From Clostridia bacterium (GTDB lineage Bacteria > Bacillota > Clostridia > Oscillospirales > CAG-272), in contig JAFTOB010000068.1 of NCBI GenBank assembly GCA_017451545.1, positions 1 through 43,693 of the forward strand: DNA of 43,693 nucleotides, in the 5' to 3' direction. Positions 18,316 to 35,933 of this stretch are shown piece by piece (the first letter of the stretch is position 1; every line of letters starts with the position of its first letter). The notes beneath the pieces were generated by a model. That model was given only the letters and a program-made list of their open reading frames with translations, was not told the origin of the DNA and did no database searches. The translations under genes and the position numbers were made by a program.

Positions 18316-18353
18316 AAAAGAAGCCAAGATCCTTCGATCTTGGCTTCTTTTTT
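18316..18353. terminator. Bidirectional terminator
   Basis: 16-bp stem AAAAGAAGCCAAGATC with CTTC loop between convergent genes; T-runs occur on both strands. Confidence 0.9.
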
Positions 18354-20682
18354 ATTTGATTGAGCGGCTTTCGTGGCAGGTGAGGTAGATTATCTGCGTG
18401 TCGCGCGAAAGCTCGCGGAGCATCTCCTTGGCGCGCTCCAGCTTCTCTCCGTCCAGATTGACGAAGGGATCGTCGAGGACGAGGAAGGGGCGTTCTTCGC
18501 CGTAGAGCGAATCAATAAGCGACAGTCTGATGCAGATGGCTACGACCGCCTGCCAGCCCGTGCTGTAAGCATCGGCCTTCTGCTGACCGCCCTCGTCCCT
18601 CAGCTTGACCTCCAGCTTTGCATCCACCGTTACGTCGCGGTCGTTGCCCGTCAGGCTGTTGAAACGGCTCTCAAAGCTGTTTTTCATATTGACGAGATAA
18701 CGGGAAGCGAGATTTTCCTTGGCCTTCTCGAGGAATTTTACGGTGCTGTCGCAGATATCGCGGCGTTCGGTGTACTCGGCCACGCGGGCTGACAGCTCCT
18801 CGCGGGTCTCCTTGAGAGCGGCAAGGCTCTCGGCCTCGTTTTCGAGGCGATCGGCTTTCTCTGTCATTCGGCTTTGGTCTGCGATGAGGCGGTTCTGCTC
18901 CTCACGGGCTCTTTCGGCAGCGATCTCAAGCATCTTGGGATCGATATCCGATTCGGGGGGCAGCTCGCCGAGATTCTTTTCTCGCTTGAAGCTCTCGGCC
19001 TTTTCTTTGTATTTTTCAAGCTCGCGCTCAAGGCGCAGGAGCTCTGCGCGGCTCTGTCTGATATCCGAAATGCCCTGCGACGGTGCAAAGCCGTATTTCT
19101 CGCGGAAGGCGGCAAGGGCGGTCATTTTTTCGCCTATTGCCTCGCGCCGACGGAGCTCGGCATTCTTACGCTCGAGCGCAGTATCGGCAAGCCTTCCGTA
19201 GCGCTCGGCATCGGCTGACAGCAGTCCGAGGGCGGCCTCCATATCGCCGCCCGCCGTGGCTCCGTATTTGCCAAGGAAGGAAATCAAACCGTTCTCGGTC
19301 TGCGCGATCTCCTCTTCAAGGGCTTTGAGCCCTTGTATTTTGCCGTCGTATTGGGCTTTTGCCGCCTCATAATCGCGGAAACGGAGCTCGGCCTCGCGCT
19401 CGGACTTGACTCTTTTTGCATCGGAATAAACGGCCACGGCCACACCCGAGACAAGGGCGACCGCACCGAAGATGCCGAGGGGGAGCAGAACAGCGAAGCC
19501 CACGGCGGCAAGAATAAGGCCTGCCACAGCCAGCGCAATGCAGGCGGCGAGCATTCCCTTCTTGACCTCAGACTTACAGATGGGCTTTTCGGGGAGCTTT
19601 TCCGACGCAAGTGCGGTGCGCAGAGCATCCGCTTCCCTTCTCTTTCTTTGCAGCTCCTTTGCCTCCCAAATACGATTCGTCAGCTCAAAGCCGCTCGGAA
19701 CACCGTCCTCAAAGCGGCGGGCGAGGGATTCGAGCTCCGAATTATTGGCGTCCGAGTGGCGGTCAAGATCGCTGAGGCTTACGTTTATTTCGCTTTCAAG
19801 CGTCTCGGCTGCCCGAAGCTCTTCCTCCGTGGGAATACCGAGTCTGAAGTTATCATTGGCGGCGTTGAGCTTATTTTGGCAGTCCTCGGCATCACGGACA
19901 AAGCCCGAATAGATCTCGTGATCCTTGCGGACGAGGTTGAGCTTGTTCGCGCCGTCTATCTTTTCGCTCAAAATTTTGATATCGGATCTGATCTCCGCGA
20001 TCCTTTCCTCGGTCTCGGCAATGCTCGCTCGGAGCGCGGCGGCCTCGGTCAGCTTTTCCTCGCACTCGCGGATGCTTTTTTCGCACTTTACGAGATCATT
20101 TTTTGTGTCCTCTATAAGTCCCCCCGTGCCCTTGAAGACCTCAAGCCTGCGGCGGCTCTCCTTGATGCGATCCACAGCCGAAGAAAACTCGCCCATATCG
20201 CTTGAGCCTTCAACAAGGGCAGTCTGACGCTCGCTGATGGAGTCGGTCATTTTCAGGTCCTTCAGCGTAGCCGCGCTCTGGGGCATATAGGTGCATTTAT
20301 CGTAGGACTCGGCGTTGATGCCGAAAAGCTCCTCGCCTATATTTTCGCTGTATTCGTCGGAGGGGAGACCCGTGTCGAGAGTGGTCAGCTCAAAGCTGTC
20401 ACCCGTGCTCGGAGAAAAGCGCCGAGCAATGCGGAATTTTCCCCGTTCGGTCTCGATATCCATAGTGCCGCCAAAATCGCCGCCCGACCAAGGGGCGTAT
20501 TTTTTGCGCAGCTTGCTCTTGTCGCGGTTGTCGGGCAGGCCGTAGAGCATGGCCTTGATGAAGGCGGCGAGGGTGGTCTTACCGTAACCGTTCTCGCCAA
20601 GCACCTCGGTGAGGCTTTCGGCCTCGAGCTTGAAATTCTTCAGCTTGCCGAAGGCGTCTACGTGTATAAACAGTATTTTCAC
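18352..20682 (-). CDS. SbcC/YhaN-like AAA ATPase with membrane hairpin
   Basis: 776 aa. The N-terminus has a Walker A loop GENGYGKTT (residues 29-37). Long coiled coils follow on either side of a hydrophobic double helix near residues 375-425 (AVGFAVLLPLGIFGAVALVSG), as in YhaN-type proteins rather than the zinc-hook SbcC. The C-terminus has the ABC signature and Walker B (PFLVLDDPFVNLDGEKL) and a switch His (IIYLTCHE). It probably works with the preceding phosphoesterase in DNA end processing. Its ATG overlaps that gene's stop by 4 nt (ATGA), indicating translational coupling. Confidence 0.85.
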   Translation of the reverse strand: MKILFIHVDAFGKLKNFKLEAESLTEVLGENGYGKTTLAAFIKAMLYGLPDNRDKSKLRKKYAPWSGGDFGGTMDIETERGKFRIARRFSPSTGDSFELTTLDTGLPSDEYSENIGEELFGINAESYDKCTYMPQSAATLKDLKMTDSISERQTALVEGSSDMGEFSSAVDRIKESRRRLEVFKGTGGLIEDTKNDLVKCEKSIRECEEKLTEAAALRASIAETEERIAEIRSDIKILSEKIDGANKLNLVRKDHEIYSGFVRDAEDCQNKLNAANDNFRLGIPTEEELRAAETLESEINVSLSDLDRHSDANNSELESLARRFEDGVPSGFELTNRIWEAKELQRKRREADALRTALASEKLPEKPICKSEVKKGMLAACIALAVAGLILAAVGFAVLLPLGIFGAVALVSGVAVAVYSDAKRVKSEREAELRFRDYEAAKAQYDGKIQGLKALEEEIAQTENGLISFLGKYGATAGGDMEAALGLLSADAERYGRLADTALERKNAELRRREAIGEKMTALAAFREKYGFAPSQGISDIRQSRAELLRLERELEKYKEKAESFKREKNLGELPPESDIDPKMLEIAAERAREEQNRLIADQSRMTEKADRLENEAESLAALKETREELSARVAEYTERRDICDSTVKFLEKAKENLASRYLVNMKNSFESRFNSLTGNDRDVTVDAKLEVKLRDEGGQQKADAYSTGWQAVVAICIRLSLIDSLYGEERPFLVLDDPFVNLDGEKLERAKEMLRELSRDTQIIYLTCHESRSIK

Positions 20683-21749
20683 GGCATTTCACCTCCCAAA
20701 AGGGCGGCGAGACCGCAGGCGATGATGCGCTCGCGCTCCTCCTCGTCCTTGACCTTTTCGGTGACAAGGCGGATGAACTCGCCCTTCAGCGAGATGTCGC
20801 CCTCGTAATCGGCGCGGTCGACCAACACTCCCGTGCGATCCTTGACCGAAAAGCCGTAATATTCGCCCTCCAGCTCGTGAACGATCTGGTCAAAGAATTT
20901 TTCCTCGCCCGGGCGGAGCTTGCCCTCGGCTCGGATGCGGACGACAGAGCTCGACGGCACGTCGGCCAGAGCATCCCTGACTCGGCAGAGCTGCTCGGCA
21001 AATGTGACGGCACCCGTCATATCGGCCCGTCTTTCCTCCACGGTGCGAATGGAGCTTTTTACGAAACGGTGAGTTATTTTGCCGTTTTCAACGTCGAGCT
21101 CAACGAATCCCTTGTCGCCGCACTCGTCAAAGCCGCGCCCCTCAAGGCAGCCGGGATAGCAATAAATGCCGCGGCGGTCGATCTTGCCCGTATCATAGCT
21201 ATGATAATGACCGAGAGCGAGGTAGTCGATGCCCTTCTCGGCCAGAGCCTTGATATTGACGGCATCCTCGCCGAAGGTCCTGCCCGCCGCGCCGTGCATA
21301 ACGGCGATATTGACCCTCTCGGGGTCAAGCTCAAGCTCGCCGTACAGGCTCTCGCAGTTTTCTCCCGTCAGCTCGACGCCGCAAACGGTGACGCCCTCGG
21401 GCAGATCGTATTTCACCCACTCCGAGCCGAAAAGCTTGAGGTTTTCGGGCAGGCTGTCGGTAAACTCAAAGCAACCCGCATCGTGGTTGCCGAAAAGTAC
21501 GTAAAATTCGATATCCGGCAGACCCCTAACCGTATCAATGACAAAACGGCGCACCTTCGCCGTCACACGGCCGCGATCGAAAAGATCGCCCGCGATAATA
21601 ACGGCGGATGCGCCCGCTTTGTCTGCATACTCGGCAAGGCGCAGAAAGGCTGTCATCAGTTCGCTTCGGCGTTCCTTCGCCCGCTCGGGTGACAGACCTG
21701 TCTGCATTGCCGCGTCAAGGTGGATATCAGACGTGTGAATTATCTTCAT
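20679..21749 (-). CDS. SbcD/YhaO-like DNA repair metallophosphoesterase
   Basis: 356 aa. Nuclease-type calcineurin fold with HTSDIHLDA at the N-terminus, IIAGDLFDRG, LFGNHDAG, a VMHGAAG His and LGHYHSYD, which are the Mre11/SbcD metal ligands. The C-terminal ~120 residues are a capping domain. It is the nuclease partner of the overlapping ATPase. Its ATG directly abuts the TAA stop of rnfB, with only a distant AAGGA upstream, so it must be read from the Rnf transcript or by coupled translation. Confidence 0.88.
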   Translation of the reverse strand: MKIIHTSDIHLDAAMQTGLSPERAKERRSELMTAFLRLAEYADKAGASAVIIAGDLFDRGRVTAKVRRFVIDTVRGLPDIEFYVLFGNHDAGCFEFTDSLPENLKLFGSEWVKYDLPEGVTVCGVELTGENCESLYGELELDPERVNIAVMHGAAGRTFGEDAVNIKALAEKGIDYLALGHYHSYDTGKIDRRGIYCYPGCLEGRGFDECGDKGFVELDVENGKITHRFVKSSIRTVEERRADMTGAVTFAEQLCRVRDALADVPSSSVVRIRAEGKLRPGEEKFFDQIVHELEGEYYGFSVKDRTGVLVDRADYEGDISLKGEFIRLVTEKVKDEEERERIIACGLAALLGGEMP

Positions 21750-26994: not shown

Positions 26995-27071
26995 GGCGGA
27001 ATAGCTCAGCTGGCTAGAGCATCCGGTTCATACCCGGCAGGTCGTTGGTTCAAATCCGACTTCCGCTACCA
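26995..27071 (+). tRNA. tRNA-Met (CAT)
   Basis: 77 nt cloverleaf: acceptor GGCGGAA/TTCCGCT, D-stem GCTC/GAGC, anticodon loop TTCATAC (anticodon CAT), T-arm GTTGG-TTCAAAT-CCGAC, encoded CCA. Elongator type, since acceptor position 1 can form a G-U pair. A tRNA-Ile with lysidine-modified CAT is a less likely alternative. Confidence 0.93.
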
Positions 27072-27103: not shown

Positions 27104-27178
27104 GGCCCGTTGGTCAAGCGGCTAAGACACGGCCCTTTCACGGCTGTAACATGGGTTCGATTCCCGTACGGGTCACCA
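27104..27178 (+). tRNA. tRNA-Glu (TTC)
   Basis: 75 nt. Acceptor GGCCCGT/ACGGGTC, anticodon stem CGGCC/GGCTG, loop CTTTCAC (anticodon TTC), T-arm ATGGG-TTCGATT-CCCGT, encoded CCA. Depends on read-through from the tRNA-Met promoter. Confidence 0.95.
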
Positions 27179-27227
27179 AAAAAGAGCAGGAGCACATTCG
27201 TGCTCCTGCTCTTTTTTGGTGACCCGT
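27168..27227. terminator. Terminator hairpin extending into tRNA-Glu acceptor end
   Basis: Positions 27168-27195 and 27200-27227 are perfect 28-nt inverted complements with loop ATTC. The outer 11 bp of the left arm are the 3' strand of the tRNA-Glu acceptor stem plus discriminator and CCA; the inner part (AAAAAAGAGCAGGAGCAC and its complement) is an ordinary intrinsic terminator with a T6 run. Confidence 0.9.
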
Positions 27228-27600
27228 CGGACGAACACAACGCGTGCTTTTAAGCTTAGCTTGCAACCAAGTAAAACTCCACCGCACGCGTATGGGTTCG
27301 AATACCCCGCCCGGAGATCTGAAAGCTCGCTTTCAAGGCGAAGGGCGTGGGTATCATCGCCACCGGCGATATTCCCGTACACAACCTTAATTTTTATGAC
27401 ACCGAATGGTGTGCTTTTTCGTTTTTGGTGACCCGTCGGACGAACGGGGCGCGTGCTTTTAGGTTTATCTGAAAACCAAGAAAAACCTCACCGCACGCGT
27501 ATGGGTTCGAATACCCCGCCCGGAGATCTGAAAGCTCGCTTTCAAGGCGAAGGGCGTGGGTATCATCGCCACCGGCGATATTCCTGTACGTAGCTTAAAG
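27213..27600 (+). repeat. Two tandem 209-nt tRNA-Glu-linked cassettes
   Basis: Occupies the 500-nt gene-free gap between tRNA-Glu and the rubredoxin gene. Period 209 nt; the cores 27280-27380 and 27489-27589 differ at one base in 101. Each unit starts with TTTTTGGTGACCCGTCGGAC (inverted tRNA acceptor end) and has a GCGTGC..GCACGC stem pair. It then has a T-arm half GGGTTCGAATACCCC, hairpins GAAAGC/GCTTTC and ATCGCC/GGCGAT, and ends in ATATTCCCGTAC, like the other half of the tRNA-Glu T-arm. Short open frames across it are not convincing genes. Confidence 0.85.
27399..27419 (+). terminator. Small terminator ending first tRNA-Glu cassette
   Basis: ACACC-GAAT-GGTGT stem-loop followed by GCTTTTT. 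The same ACACC-GAAT-GGTGT core is used in the tRNA-Lys terminator at 35833-35846. Confidence 0.6.
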
Positions 27601-27639
27601 TTTCAAAGCGCAGTCGAAAACTCCATACTCTCGCCCCAA

Positions 27640-27670
27640 CAAAAAGGCAGGGATCGCTCCCTGCCCTCTT
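27640..27670. terminator. Terminator between the cassettes and the rubredoxin gene
   Basis: GGCAGGGA-TCGC-TCCCTGCC with A5 on the left and CTCTTTTATT on the right; usable in both directions. Confidence 0.8.
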
Positions 27671-27673
27671 TTA

Positions 27674-27835
27674 TTATTCCGCCTCGGAGAAATTATCCTT
27701 GCCTACTCCGCAGAGGGGGCACTCGAAATCCTCGGGCAGATCCTCAAACTTTGTGCCGGGGGCGATTCCGTTATCGGGGTCGCCGACTGCCTCATCATAT
27801 TCCCAGCCACATACATCACATACGTATTTTTTCAT
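27674..27835 (-). CDS. Rubredoxin
   Basis: 53 aa, a full-length rubredoxin. Two metal knuckles are present: [11 protein letters not shown] near residues 4-14 and [12 protein letters not shown] near 37-48; between them lies the conserved [20 protein letters not shown]. Four cysteines hold one iron. It is a small cytoplasmic electron carrier, often supplying rubrerythrin, ferritin-like or flavodiiron proteins under oxidative stress. Start at 27835, because the ATG at 27841 is only 2 nt from the AAAGGA site whereas this one is 8 nt away. 35 nt downstream of the ferritin gene, so one operon. Confidence 0.96.
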
Positions 27836-27870
27836 TTTCATATTCCTTTCTTATTGTTAAAATGTACTTA

Positions 27871-28383
27871 TCAGAGCACCAGCGAGGGCGCGGTGTATAC
27901 TCTTGCCGCCAGTTCCTGGTTAAGCATATAGAGACTTCTCGGATCGCTGCCGAAGAGCTCCATCTTGGTGATCATATCGTTGGCGTTGGTCTCCTCCTCA
28001 CCCTGCTCCTTGACGAACCAATCGAGGAACTGCATTGTGCGGAAGTCCTTGACGTCGTAAGCCGCAGCGTATATGTCGTTGATCAGCGAGGTCACGTACT
28101 CCTCGTGCTCAAGGCCTGCCTTCAGGACGTCCATATGGCACTCGAAGGTCTTATCGGGCTTGGCTATTGCCTCCAAAGTTACGGGCTGACTTTCATTCTG
28201 CAGGTACTGGTAGAAGAGCATTGCGTGGTCGCGCTCCTCCTGTGCCTGGATCATATACCAATTTGCGAAGCCGTCGAGGCCCTTCGCCTTGAAATAATTT
28301 GAAAAATCGAGGTAGAGATATGCCGAGTAAAATTCCTTGTTTATCTGCTGATTGAGAAGCTCGTGTACTTTTGCGTTCATCAT
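27871..28383 (-). CDS. Ferritin (non-haem, FtnA type)
   Basis: 170 aa, typical for bacterial ferritin. The four-helix bundle has ferroxidase ligands in NKEFYSAYLYLDFSNYF (Glu near 17), AQEERDHAMLFYQYL (Glu and His near 50-53), EHEEYVTSLIND and FVKEQGEEETNAND. No haem-binding Met of bacterioferritin is apparent. It oxidises and stores iron in the cytoplasm and protects from peroxide. AGGAG lies 8 nt before the first of two adjacent ATGs. Operon with rubredoxin; a CRP/FNR-like site sits in its promoter. Confidence 0.95.
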   Translation of the reverse strand: MMNAKVHELLNQQINKEFYSAYLYLDFSNYFKAKGLDGFANWYMIQAQEERDHAMLFYQYLQNESQPVTLEAIAKPDKTFECHMDVLKAGLEHEEYVTSLINDIYAAAYDVKDFRTMQFLDWFVKEQGEEETNANDMITKMELFGSDPRSLYMLNQELAARVYTAPSLVL

Positions 28384-30210: not shown

Positions 30211-30702
30211 TTATTGCTCCTTGCCGAAGAGCTTGGTGCGTATGGGCCATACGGCGGCCATAAGGATATATCCGAACAGTCCCGCCGAGATTATCTCACC
30301 TGCGCCCACGGTGACGAATATAAAAGGAAGGGCGTCGCCCACGTTATAGGCGTATTTTAGGACGAAGGGGATGATCAGCGTATTGGCGACGATGGGCGGC
30401 AGAGGCGCCAGCATACGGAATTTCCGCAGGGCTCTCGTGCCCAGCGCGCCGATAAGTGTGGCGGCTGTTCCGAAAACGATATCCAGCCAATTACAGCCCG
30501 ACACGAGGTTCGTGATCAGGCAGCCGACGGTCACGCCCGGCACGGCGGCGGGTGTGAAAACGGGCAGGATGCACAAAGCCTCGGACAGTCGGCATTGGAT
30601 AACGCCCGACGACATACCGAAGGCGGTGCTGATTAAGGCCAGGGCGACGTACATTGCCGCGATGATAGCGGCGTGGCAGGTGAACAGGGTCTTGCTTTTC
30701 AT
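30211..30702 (-). CDS. queT: Queuosine precursor transporter QueT
   Basis: 163-aa membrane protein of the QueT family (S-component of an energy-coupling factor transporter): AAIIAAMYVALALIS in the first helix, GVIQCRLSEALCILPVFTP, GVTVGCLITNLVSGCNWLDI with the typical GC(L/I)ixN motif, and FGTAATLIGALGT. QueT imports preQ1 or a related queuine precursor. This assignment is supported by the preQ1-I-like riboswitch in the leader. AAGGAG lies 8 nt before the ATG, and its sequence is part of the riboswitch tail. Confidence 0.92.
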   Translation of the reverse strand: MKSKTLFTCHAAIIAAMYVALALISTAFGMSSGVIQCRLSEALCILPVFTPAAVPGVTVGCLITNLVSGCNWLDIVFGTAATLIGALGTRALRKFRMLAPLPPIVANTLIIPFVLKYAYNVGDALPFIFVTVGAGEIISAGLFGYILMAAVWPIRTKLFGKEQ

Positions 30703-35542: not shown

Positions 35543-35550
35543 ATAAGCAA

Positions 35551-35857
35551 GGCTTAAATGCACACGCCGGGGCCGATAGGTTGTGGATCACAAAAAAGAG
35601 AGCACACACCGAATGGGCTATAAGGTGAAATCAGGTTTGTCCTTTGCCCGGGAATCCGCCCTCTGCTTCGCTTCGGCGGCGGAATCCTCCGAGCCGTCCG
35701 TGAGCAAGCTCCCGACGTCTTCCGTCGGATTCTCGAACCCGCTGCGTGTGCGGATTCGTTTGCTTTGACTTTATGTATGGCTTAAATGCACACGCCGGGT
35801 TAGATAGGTTGTGGATCACCAAAAAAGAGGGCACACCGAATGGTGTGCCCTCTTTTT
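35551..35857 (-). repeat. tRNA-Lys-linked cassette and duplicated end segment
   Basis: 35551-35616 and 35779-35843 are ~65-nt direct repeats (about 90% alike) containing GCACACGCC or GTGCATTTAAGCC (minus) and GGTTGTGGATCAC. Between them, read on the minus strand, come GCACACGC, then CGGGTTCGAGAATCCG (35726-35741), a GAGCTTGCTC hairpin, and GGATTCCCGGGC (35657-35646), matching the tRNA-Lys T-arm halves. The order of parts is the same as in the tRNA-Glu cassettes although the sequences differ. Confidence 0.75.
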
Positions 35858-35868
35858 TGGTGATCCAC
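35811..35868. terminator. Terminator hairpin extending into tRNA-Lys acceptor end
   Basis: 35811-35837 and 35842-35868 are perfect 27-nt inverted complements with loop GAAT. On the transcribed (minus) strand the outer 11 nt are the acceptor 3' strand, discriminator and CCA of tRNA-Lys, and the inner part is a terminator with T6. Confidence 0.9.
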
Positions 35869-35933
35869 CCGGGAATCGAACCCGGGACACCTTGATTAAA
35901 AGTCAAGTGCTCTACCGCCTGAGCTAGTGGATC
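35858..35933 (-). tRNA. tRNA-Lys (TTT)
   Basis: 76 nt on the minus strand: acceptor GATCCAC/GTGGATC, D-stem GCTC/GAGC, anticodon stem CTTGA/TCAAG with loop CTTTTAA (anticodon TTT), T-arm CCGGG-TTCGATT-CCCGG, encoded CCA. Confidence 0.97.

Follow-up and report, generated by a model that had tools for sequence, protein, structure and literature searches.

The window analyzed here is a stretch of 43,693 nt on a contig of a Clostridia bacterium (Oscillospirales; CAG-272). Its gene for tRNA-Lys(TTT) lies on the reverse strand (positions 35858 to 35933; ARAGORN and Rfam RF00005), and the 3' end of this gene takes part in an inverted repeat whose 27-bp arms (35811 to 35837 and 35842 to 35868) are 100% complementary around a 4-nt loop. 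The first-pass annotation had described such a perfect repeat, built on the tRNA's own acceptor sequence, and our analysis agrees. Within the arm, 11 of the 27 bp are tRNA (GTGGATC plus ACCA, i.e., the whole 3' acceptor strand, the discriminator, and CCA), and the other 16 bp are those of a terminator-like hairpin after the tRNA. Read along the tRNA strand, the palindrome consists of GTGGATCACCA (tRNA) plus AAAAAGAGGGCACACC-ATTC-GGTGTGCCCTCTTTTT plus TGGTGATCCAC. We call the tRNA 3' end X, the hairpin after CCA H (AAAAAGAGGGCACACC-ATTC-GGTGTGCCCTCTTTTT; 35822 to 35857, reverse strand; direct reading and inverted repeat), and the inverted copy of the acceptor strand and ACCA X' (TGGTGATCCAC; 35811 to 35821, reverse strand; inverted repeat). 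Each of the 11 bases of X' is complementary to its counterpart in the 3' acceptor strand, the discriminator, and CCA. By eye, H has a GC stem followed by a T-run, as an intrinsic terminator would. A consensus terminator scan made no call on it, probably because the stem extends through the T-run.

A 28-bp perfect version with its own acceptor sequence (arms 27168 to 27195 and 27200 to 27227) was found at tRNA-Glu(TTC) on the forward strand (27104 to 27178; ARAGORN and Rfam RF00005). Here, H (27179 to 27216) and X' (TGGTGACCCGT; 27217 to 27227) were both defined from the inverted repeat and the sequence. At tRNA-Met (26995 to 27071), no such inverted repeat is present, as the earlier reading had stated; this gene is followed by just a short ordinary hairpin.

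The Lys palindrome forms the end nearest the tRNA of a unit of about 200 bp, in which X is followed by H, X', a further stem (P1), and a T-arm copied in forward orientation, with a structured insert (R1) interrupting its loop. At tRNA-Lys, P1 is the stem GCGTGTGC/GCACACGC (35744 to 35795, reverse strand; direct reading and DNA fold prediction), and the forward T-arm copy, GCGGGTTCG...GATTCCCGGG (35646 to 35742, reverse strand), is split by a diverged insert of the R1 type (covariance match, E value of 2.9e-4). A second, partial unit made up of half of H, X', and the start of P1 lies 228 bp farther on (35544 to 35616, reverse strand; direct repeats). At tRNA-Glu, P1 is CGCGTGC/GCACGCG (27241 to 27290, forward strand; direct reading), followed by a T-arm copy with the insert, ATGGGTTCG...ATTCCCGT (27292 to 27380, forward strand; E value of 3.5e-28, with the sequence being one of the nine from which the R1 model was built). 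The second Glu unit has a hairpin remnant and an X' (27426 to 27436) within positions 27399 to 27436 (forward strand; repeats and sequence) and a second R1 domain at 27501 to 27589 (forward strand; E value of 2.5e-27). Both window loci thus carry more inverted and forward tRNA-matched pieces plus a tandem partial repeat downstream (35544 to 35616 and 27399 to 27603). The forward T-arm piece is broken in the T-loop at both Glu (27292 to 27380) and Lys (35742 to 35646), and the distal X of the window is split and lacks the acceptor end. Folded as single-stranded DNA, the Lys region (35646 to 35868) had a z score of -11.9 against shuffled sequences, and the X-H-X' stem dominated the fold. Among curated Rfam models, only tRNAs matched the window at the gathering score. 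An open frame of 248 aa on the forward strand (27556 to 28302) begins inside the second Glu unit; it is probably spurious, which calls for caution with gene callers.

Architecture of the units

Forward, inverted, and forward copies of one segment (X, X', X) stand at many tRNAs, often in a decayed state: many forward copies end short of CCA, and many X' copies have decayed. The forward copies started at GGTTC in 27 of 52 rows. In 50 of 58 rows, GGTTC was separated from the tRNA base that follows it, R57, by exactly one extra base; the 58 rows came from nine surveyed genomes, and at least 4 of them count one unit twice (two tRNAs precede the unit). The extra base was T in 25, A in 22, C in 2, and G in 1 of these 50 rows. 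As a search motif, GGTTC with its extra base gave 59 matches in five genomes. Of these, 47 lie downstream of a same-strand tRNA at a distance of no more than 1 kb, and 12 have no listed tRNA within 1 kb. GGTTCW alone is too short a motif for judging spread through the order; among the genomes listed of 394, none except G105 reached a count of 9 (by eye).

The tRNA 3' end is directly duplicated, including CCA, at four loci (L089, L090, L130, and L145) and nowhere in the window itself. In several fresh-looking cases, the H after the tRNA is identical to the H after the distal copy, whereas at L089 and L090 the two are completely unlike. No gene was found in the units, and the roughly 100 to 300 bp between copies is too short for an integrase plus cargo, neither of which was seen. 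At L091, L235, and L168, near-identical units form tandem arrays behind a single tRNA. At L024 and L216, where the tRNA is an initiator-type tRNA-Met, the inverted copy extends past the T-arm, with anticodon- and D-arm-like pieces beyond, so that by eye it amounts to nearly a whole inverted tRNA.

Frequency of copies matching the resident tRNA

Covariance searching of the window's own genome gave 34 tRNA matches; 33 ARAGORN rows were used in the survey, with duplicates and flanks with less than 60 nt downstream dropped. An inverted acceptor copy matching at 9 or more of 11 positions followed Lys, Glu-TTC, Glu-CTC, Gln-TTG, and one tRNA-Met. At Arg-CCT, the forward part is present without an acceptor copy. 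Many other tRNAs of this genome are followed by a hairpin and then by hairpin arrays of other kinds. At L008, L013, L022, and L030 (also L009, L021, L025, and L029), for instance, the tRNA terminator is followed by arrays of short hairpins with spacers of the TGAAATA or ATATCATC type, a different kind of tRNA-following repeat.

We then considered this genome together with four more (167 tRNA flanks). An inverted copy of the flank's own tRNA (score of at least 24) was present in 23 of the 167 flanks (14%) versus 0.12% of mismatched pairs, so that the survey for acceptor-matched inverted copies proposed in the first-pass annotation did turn up further cases. Forward copies of the own tRNA (score of at least 28) were present in 31 flanks (19%) versus 0.27% of mismatched pairs. 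A full 11/11 match to the own acceptor within 90 nt occurred in 8 of the 167 flanks and in 0 of 3,340 mismatched tRNA/flank pairs from the five genomes. Exact runs of at least 8 nt from the complement of CCA followed 26 of 276 tRNAs versus 15 of 5,520 mismatched pairs; these runs are as long as 24 nt, and their lengths show no peak at 11, where the acceptor ends. The pattern is far too frequent for chance. Copies occur at tRNAs for Arg, Gln, Glu, Gly, His, Leu, Lys, Pro, Ser, Thr, Trp, Tyr, and Val.

Searching the GTDB species-genome collection for the exact Glu palindrome gave 14 stretches; 11 are at tRNA-Glu in metagenome-assembled genomes labeled Clostridia or Oscillospiraceae. The other three (L088, L092, and L094) were set aside as chance matches, no tRNA being called on the 8-kb locus. 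The pattern GGTCACCA-N(20-45)-TGGTGACC was present in 10 of 196 genomes of the family, and its reversed control was present in 0. Unbiased Glu and Lys flanks from the family contained no perfect 11-nt copy beyond the window's own genome. Carriage of the Glu and Lys palindromes by phages was rejected, as neither had a match in IMG/VR.

The arms follow the resident tRNA

The earlier reading held the relation to be architectural, with each copy matching its own tRNA, and this holds across many tRNA species and genomes under the mismatched-tRNA controls. A copy of the 5' acceptor strand was rejected on the basis of tRNA-Gln, where the copy carries the complement of the 3' strand TATCCCA, unlike the mismatched 5' strand.

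Substitutions in the tRNAs of sister species were mirrored in the copies, as the proposed check for co-change between tRNA and copy would have it (by eye; both copies for Trp and the forward copy for Leu-TAG). Between two sister species of one genus, tRNA-Trp GGGTTCGAGTCC/GGGTTCAAGTCC is paralleled by X' GGACTCGAA/GGACTTGAA and by forward X TCGAGTCC/CCAAGTCC, the substitution G57A being mirrored in both the inverted and the forward copy. At Leu-TAG, the difference GTCACC/GTCGCC, at one acceptor-side position, recurs in X. Within one genome (G070), the units at Trp, Leu-CAA, and Leu-TAG have a near-identical core (by eye), with both arms fitting each own tRNA. The sequences of H and P1 are wholly replaced between some orthologous units, with pairing kept.

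X' itself varies in perfection between sister species with the same or nearly the same H. At Glu-TTC, X' is TGGTGACCCGT in G105 versus TGATTACCCGT in G147; at Gly-CCC, it is TGGAGCAG in G158 versus CGGATCAG in G116; and at Tyr, its exact run is 16 nt in G158 versus 5 nt in G116 (the direction of change is unpolarized in all three comparisons). This variation suggests that the acceptor match itself is probably not the target of selection. For the sister analysis, we used the tRNA-extension list and the sister rows; an arm-length table was dropped because of artifacts from masked N stretches.

The structured insert

The R1 model, built from nine tRNA-Glu inserts, has 28 pairs, with 92.9% of cells paired. 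Two-sided changes were counted in 26 cells, compared to 9.8 in shuffled alignments (0 of 500 shuffles were as high, and slid controls reached 5 at most), and 11 of the 28 pairs had such a change among the nine sequences, all from tRNA-Glu. These compensatory changes suggest selection on the structure of the insert.

R1 matched in 138 of 395 genomes of the family and in 30 of 71 genera, with up to 11 copies per genome. Among the best 30 loci, 27 had a same-strand tRNA 75 to 728 nt upstream (Glu, 10; Cys, 7; Arg, 6; Gly, 3; Val, 1), and 3 were too near a contig end to decide. We compared the T-stem with the host tRNA at 26 of the 27 loci (one was dropped, as the motif was absent). The 5' strand agreed with the host at four or five of five bases in 22 of 26 loci versus 5.0% of 522 mismatched hosts, and the 3' strand did so in 22 of 26 loci versus 13.4% of 478 mismatched hosts; the match fell below four of five bases in 4 of 26 loci on each strand. 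A known RNA family was rejected as an identity for the unit: at E values up to 1, ten unit loci matched no Rfam model other than tRNA and weak hairpin look-alikes.

Units at the 5' end of tRNA-Ser and beside putative recombinase genes

Twenty further R1 matches were examined, including all 11 listed ones covering only model positions 6 to 82. For nine of these 11 partial matches, the opposite strand carries a tRNA-Ser at a distance of 81 to 286 nt, with the match located 5' of that tRNA; the other two had no tRNA called nearby, one of them with just 63 nt of contig upstream. This 5' form is inserted in CCACTTCG^ATATCTCTCC or close to it, shares the TTCG^AT context, and has an AT-rich palindrome without a T-run. 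In G105, one tRNA-Ser carries a unit at both ends. The existence of a form at the tRNA-Ser 5' end makes a terminator- or CCA-specific role of the pattern unlikely. A function tied to the acceptor or CCA is likewise disfavored by the missing run-length peak at 11 and by the decay of X' in sister species.

Of the other nine R1 matches, seven follow tRNAs for Pro, Ser, Glu, Gln, or Cys, and two (L472 and L473) have no local tRNA. The latter two units are joined directly, at TCCACCA and TCACCA, to the 3' ends of genes for putative large serine recombinases (Pfam Recombinase and Zn_ribbon_recom for L472; reading of the translation only for L473). An element integrated between a tRNA and its unit is the likeliest explanation, and recombinases like these may take part as well. 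The recombinase frames (L472, 1 to 1116, forward strand; L473, 1194 to 2099, reverse strand) continue through the hairpin and enter or traverse the R1 element; the annotated C termini would thus consist of repeat sequence.

Discussion

Few sites in bacterial genomes receive mobile DNA as often as tRNA genes do. Across the family of gut bacteria studied here, the ends of these genes are being copied, turned around, and multiplied according to a regular pattern. Read from the sequences, the architecture, the match of both copies to their own tRNA, the T-loop junction, the structured insert, and the position locked to tRNA genes are established features. For their origin, we lean, with about even confidence, toward a tRNA-anchored inverted-triplication repeat whose arms would be recopied from the resident tRNA by hairpin-provoked template switching. 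H would provoke a template switch during replication: the nascent strand would fold back at the hairpin and copy the tRNA 3' end in reverse, giving X', and would then return to the original template farther back, giving the second forward X. Past the forward X with its T-loop insert, the unit ends in a second hairpin. The same switching could occasionally make X' copies perfect again, and a family of hairpin inserts may ride on the duplicated T-arm and have spread between tRNA loci. PMC8794818 describes template switching as able to create and mend perfect hairpins, and PMC13334657 reports small duplication-inversion-duplication events in yeast and tumors, with their loss tested in E. coli. 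The same or nearly the same H with a perfect or a decayed X' in sister species is the footprint expected of hairpin correction and decay, and X' runs of up to 24 nt without a peak at the acceptor boundary suit repeated copying across the hairpin followed by decay. The excess of own-tRNA copies over the mismatched controls, the 3'-strand copy at tRNA-Gln, the frequent GGTTC start with its extra base, and the shared core of the G070 units likewise speak for this reading. As a repeat, the unit is probably tolerated and in part selfish, and at 3' ends H would double as the tRNA terminator. One simple template-switch event would not give the differing H copies at L089 and L090, and no event with a proven empty ancestor was found among the loci compared. 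Template switching also leaves the recurrence of related cores and inserts across tRNAs and genera unexplained, which requires spread of the core as a second process. This spread and the structural conservation point to an additional mobile or selected element.

A further possibility, to which we give a fairly low probability, is a gene-less mobile element that makes its terminal arms anew from every tRNA gene into which it moves. Its conserved hairpin core would recognize the universal T-loop and copy the resident tRNA end one time in reverse and one time forward, giving a tRNA-specific unit while the tRNA stays intact. If this were true, target-copying repeats would, to our knowledge, be an undescribed class, and an element would have a new means of moving that spares its target. 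Insertion at TTCG^AT by a dedicated recombinase that targets the universal T-loop (GGTTC/TTCGAT), with the tRNA 3' duplication as an att-type repeat, seems unlikely to us. It would suit the sharp T-loop junction, the four direct duplications that include CCA, the TTCG^AT context at the tRNA-Ser 5' end, the related cores at different tRNAs of G070, and the units abutting putative large serine recombinase genes at L472 and L473 (Pfam for L472 only). However, site-specific recombination makes no inverted target copy, and here both arms are target specific; the units contain no gene, their Glu and Lys palindromes are absent from IMG/VR, and ordinary elements inserted between a tRNA and a preexisting unit also explain L472 and L473.

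We give a similarly low probability to a selected RNA or DNA device at tRNA ends, such as a read-through RNA that would base-pair with the 3' half of the tRNA, or a switch in which the P1-closing stem and the T-stem would alternate. The compensatory changes in the insert, the presence of R1 in 138 of 395 genomes, the retention of units at orthologous tRNAs with hairpin sequences replaced and pairing retained, and the T-stem and arms that track the host tRNA and its substitutions all speak for it. Yet the unit sits beyond a terminator-like hairpin, most tRNAs and genomes lack it, its order and copy number vary, and a perfect X' is transient. At tRNA-Ser, the unit stands at the 5' end of the gene on the opposite strand, and its AT-rich hairpin lacks a T-run; no Rfam family apart from tRNA and hairpin look-alikes matched at an E value of 1. 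The portion of a tRNA gene that usually serves as attB is X, and X' presents it again in inverted form; the copies could be decoys at which integrating elements land without harming the tRNA, and two recombinase genes do end at the CCA/H joint of such units. Since many forward copies end before CCA, many X' copies have decayed, and no integration into X' was seen, we consider such spare attachment sites very improbable. We find an ordinary bidirectional terminator that extends into the tRNA by chance hardly credible: the central 16 bp and the T-run resemble an intrinsic terminator, but the mismatched-tRNA controls reject chance extension, and the palindrome recurs at unrelated tRNAs with changed acceptor sequences.

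Among known systems, template-switch (quasipalindrome) mutation, as treated in PMC8794818, resembles the unit in its perfect inverted copy beside a hairpin, mutual correction of the arms, and sequence turnover with pairing kept; unlike it, the unit recurs at many tRNAs of one bacterial family, with a forward third copy and a conserved insert. The duplication-inversion-duplication events of PMC13334657 also have forward, inverted, and forward copies of a short segment at a scale of about 150 bp, with hairpins at the joints. Those events are described there as rare in yeast and tumors and unstable in E. coli, whereas the unit is inherited, widespread, and tRNA bound and has a structured domain. 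Two structured-RNA surveys (PMC8040213 and PMC2864571) contained nothing comparable in their passages on tRNA terms. A literature search, mostly of open-access papers and without bioRxiv preprints, found no description of bacterial tRNA genes followed by inverted copies that match the tRNA.

The unit also differs from familiar elements. In tRNA-gene attachment sites, a displaced 3' fragment from the T-loop to CCA is duplicated downstream of the gene; the unit likewise duplicates the tRNA 3' end but has no integrase gene or cargo and has an extra inverted copy. REP/REPIN sequences and nonautonomous IS200/IS605-type elements are short, noncoding, and hairpin rich, with several per genome. Unlike these, the arms of the unit follow the neighboring tRNA, the location is locked to tRNA genes, and there is no constant terminal hairpin, H and P1 differing entirely between some orthologous units. 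With more than 12 tRNA species represented, the units offer a natural, replicated record of the way in which hairpins in bacterial chromosomes may give rise to inverted copies, together with a family of structured inserts that no Rfam model covers and whose flanks track the host tRNA.

Two further observations concern protein genes of the window. A QueT-type transporter gene (Pfam; 30211 to 30702, reverse strand) lies between the Lys and Glu tRNA loci. Adjoining genes on the reverse strand (18352 to 20682 and 20679 to 21749) encode an AAA_23 ATPase and a calcineurin-like phosphoesterase (Pfam), a pair that we take to resemble YhaN/YhaO or SbcC/SbcD and thus presumably a possible hairpin nuclease.
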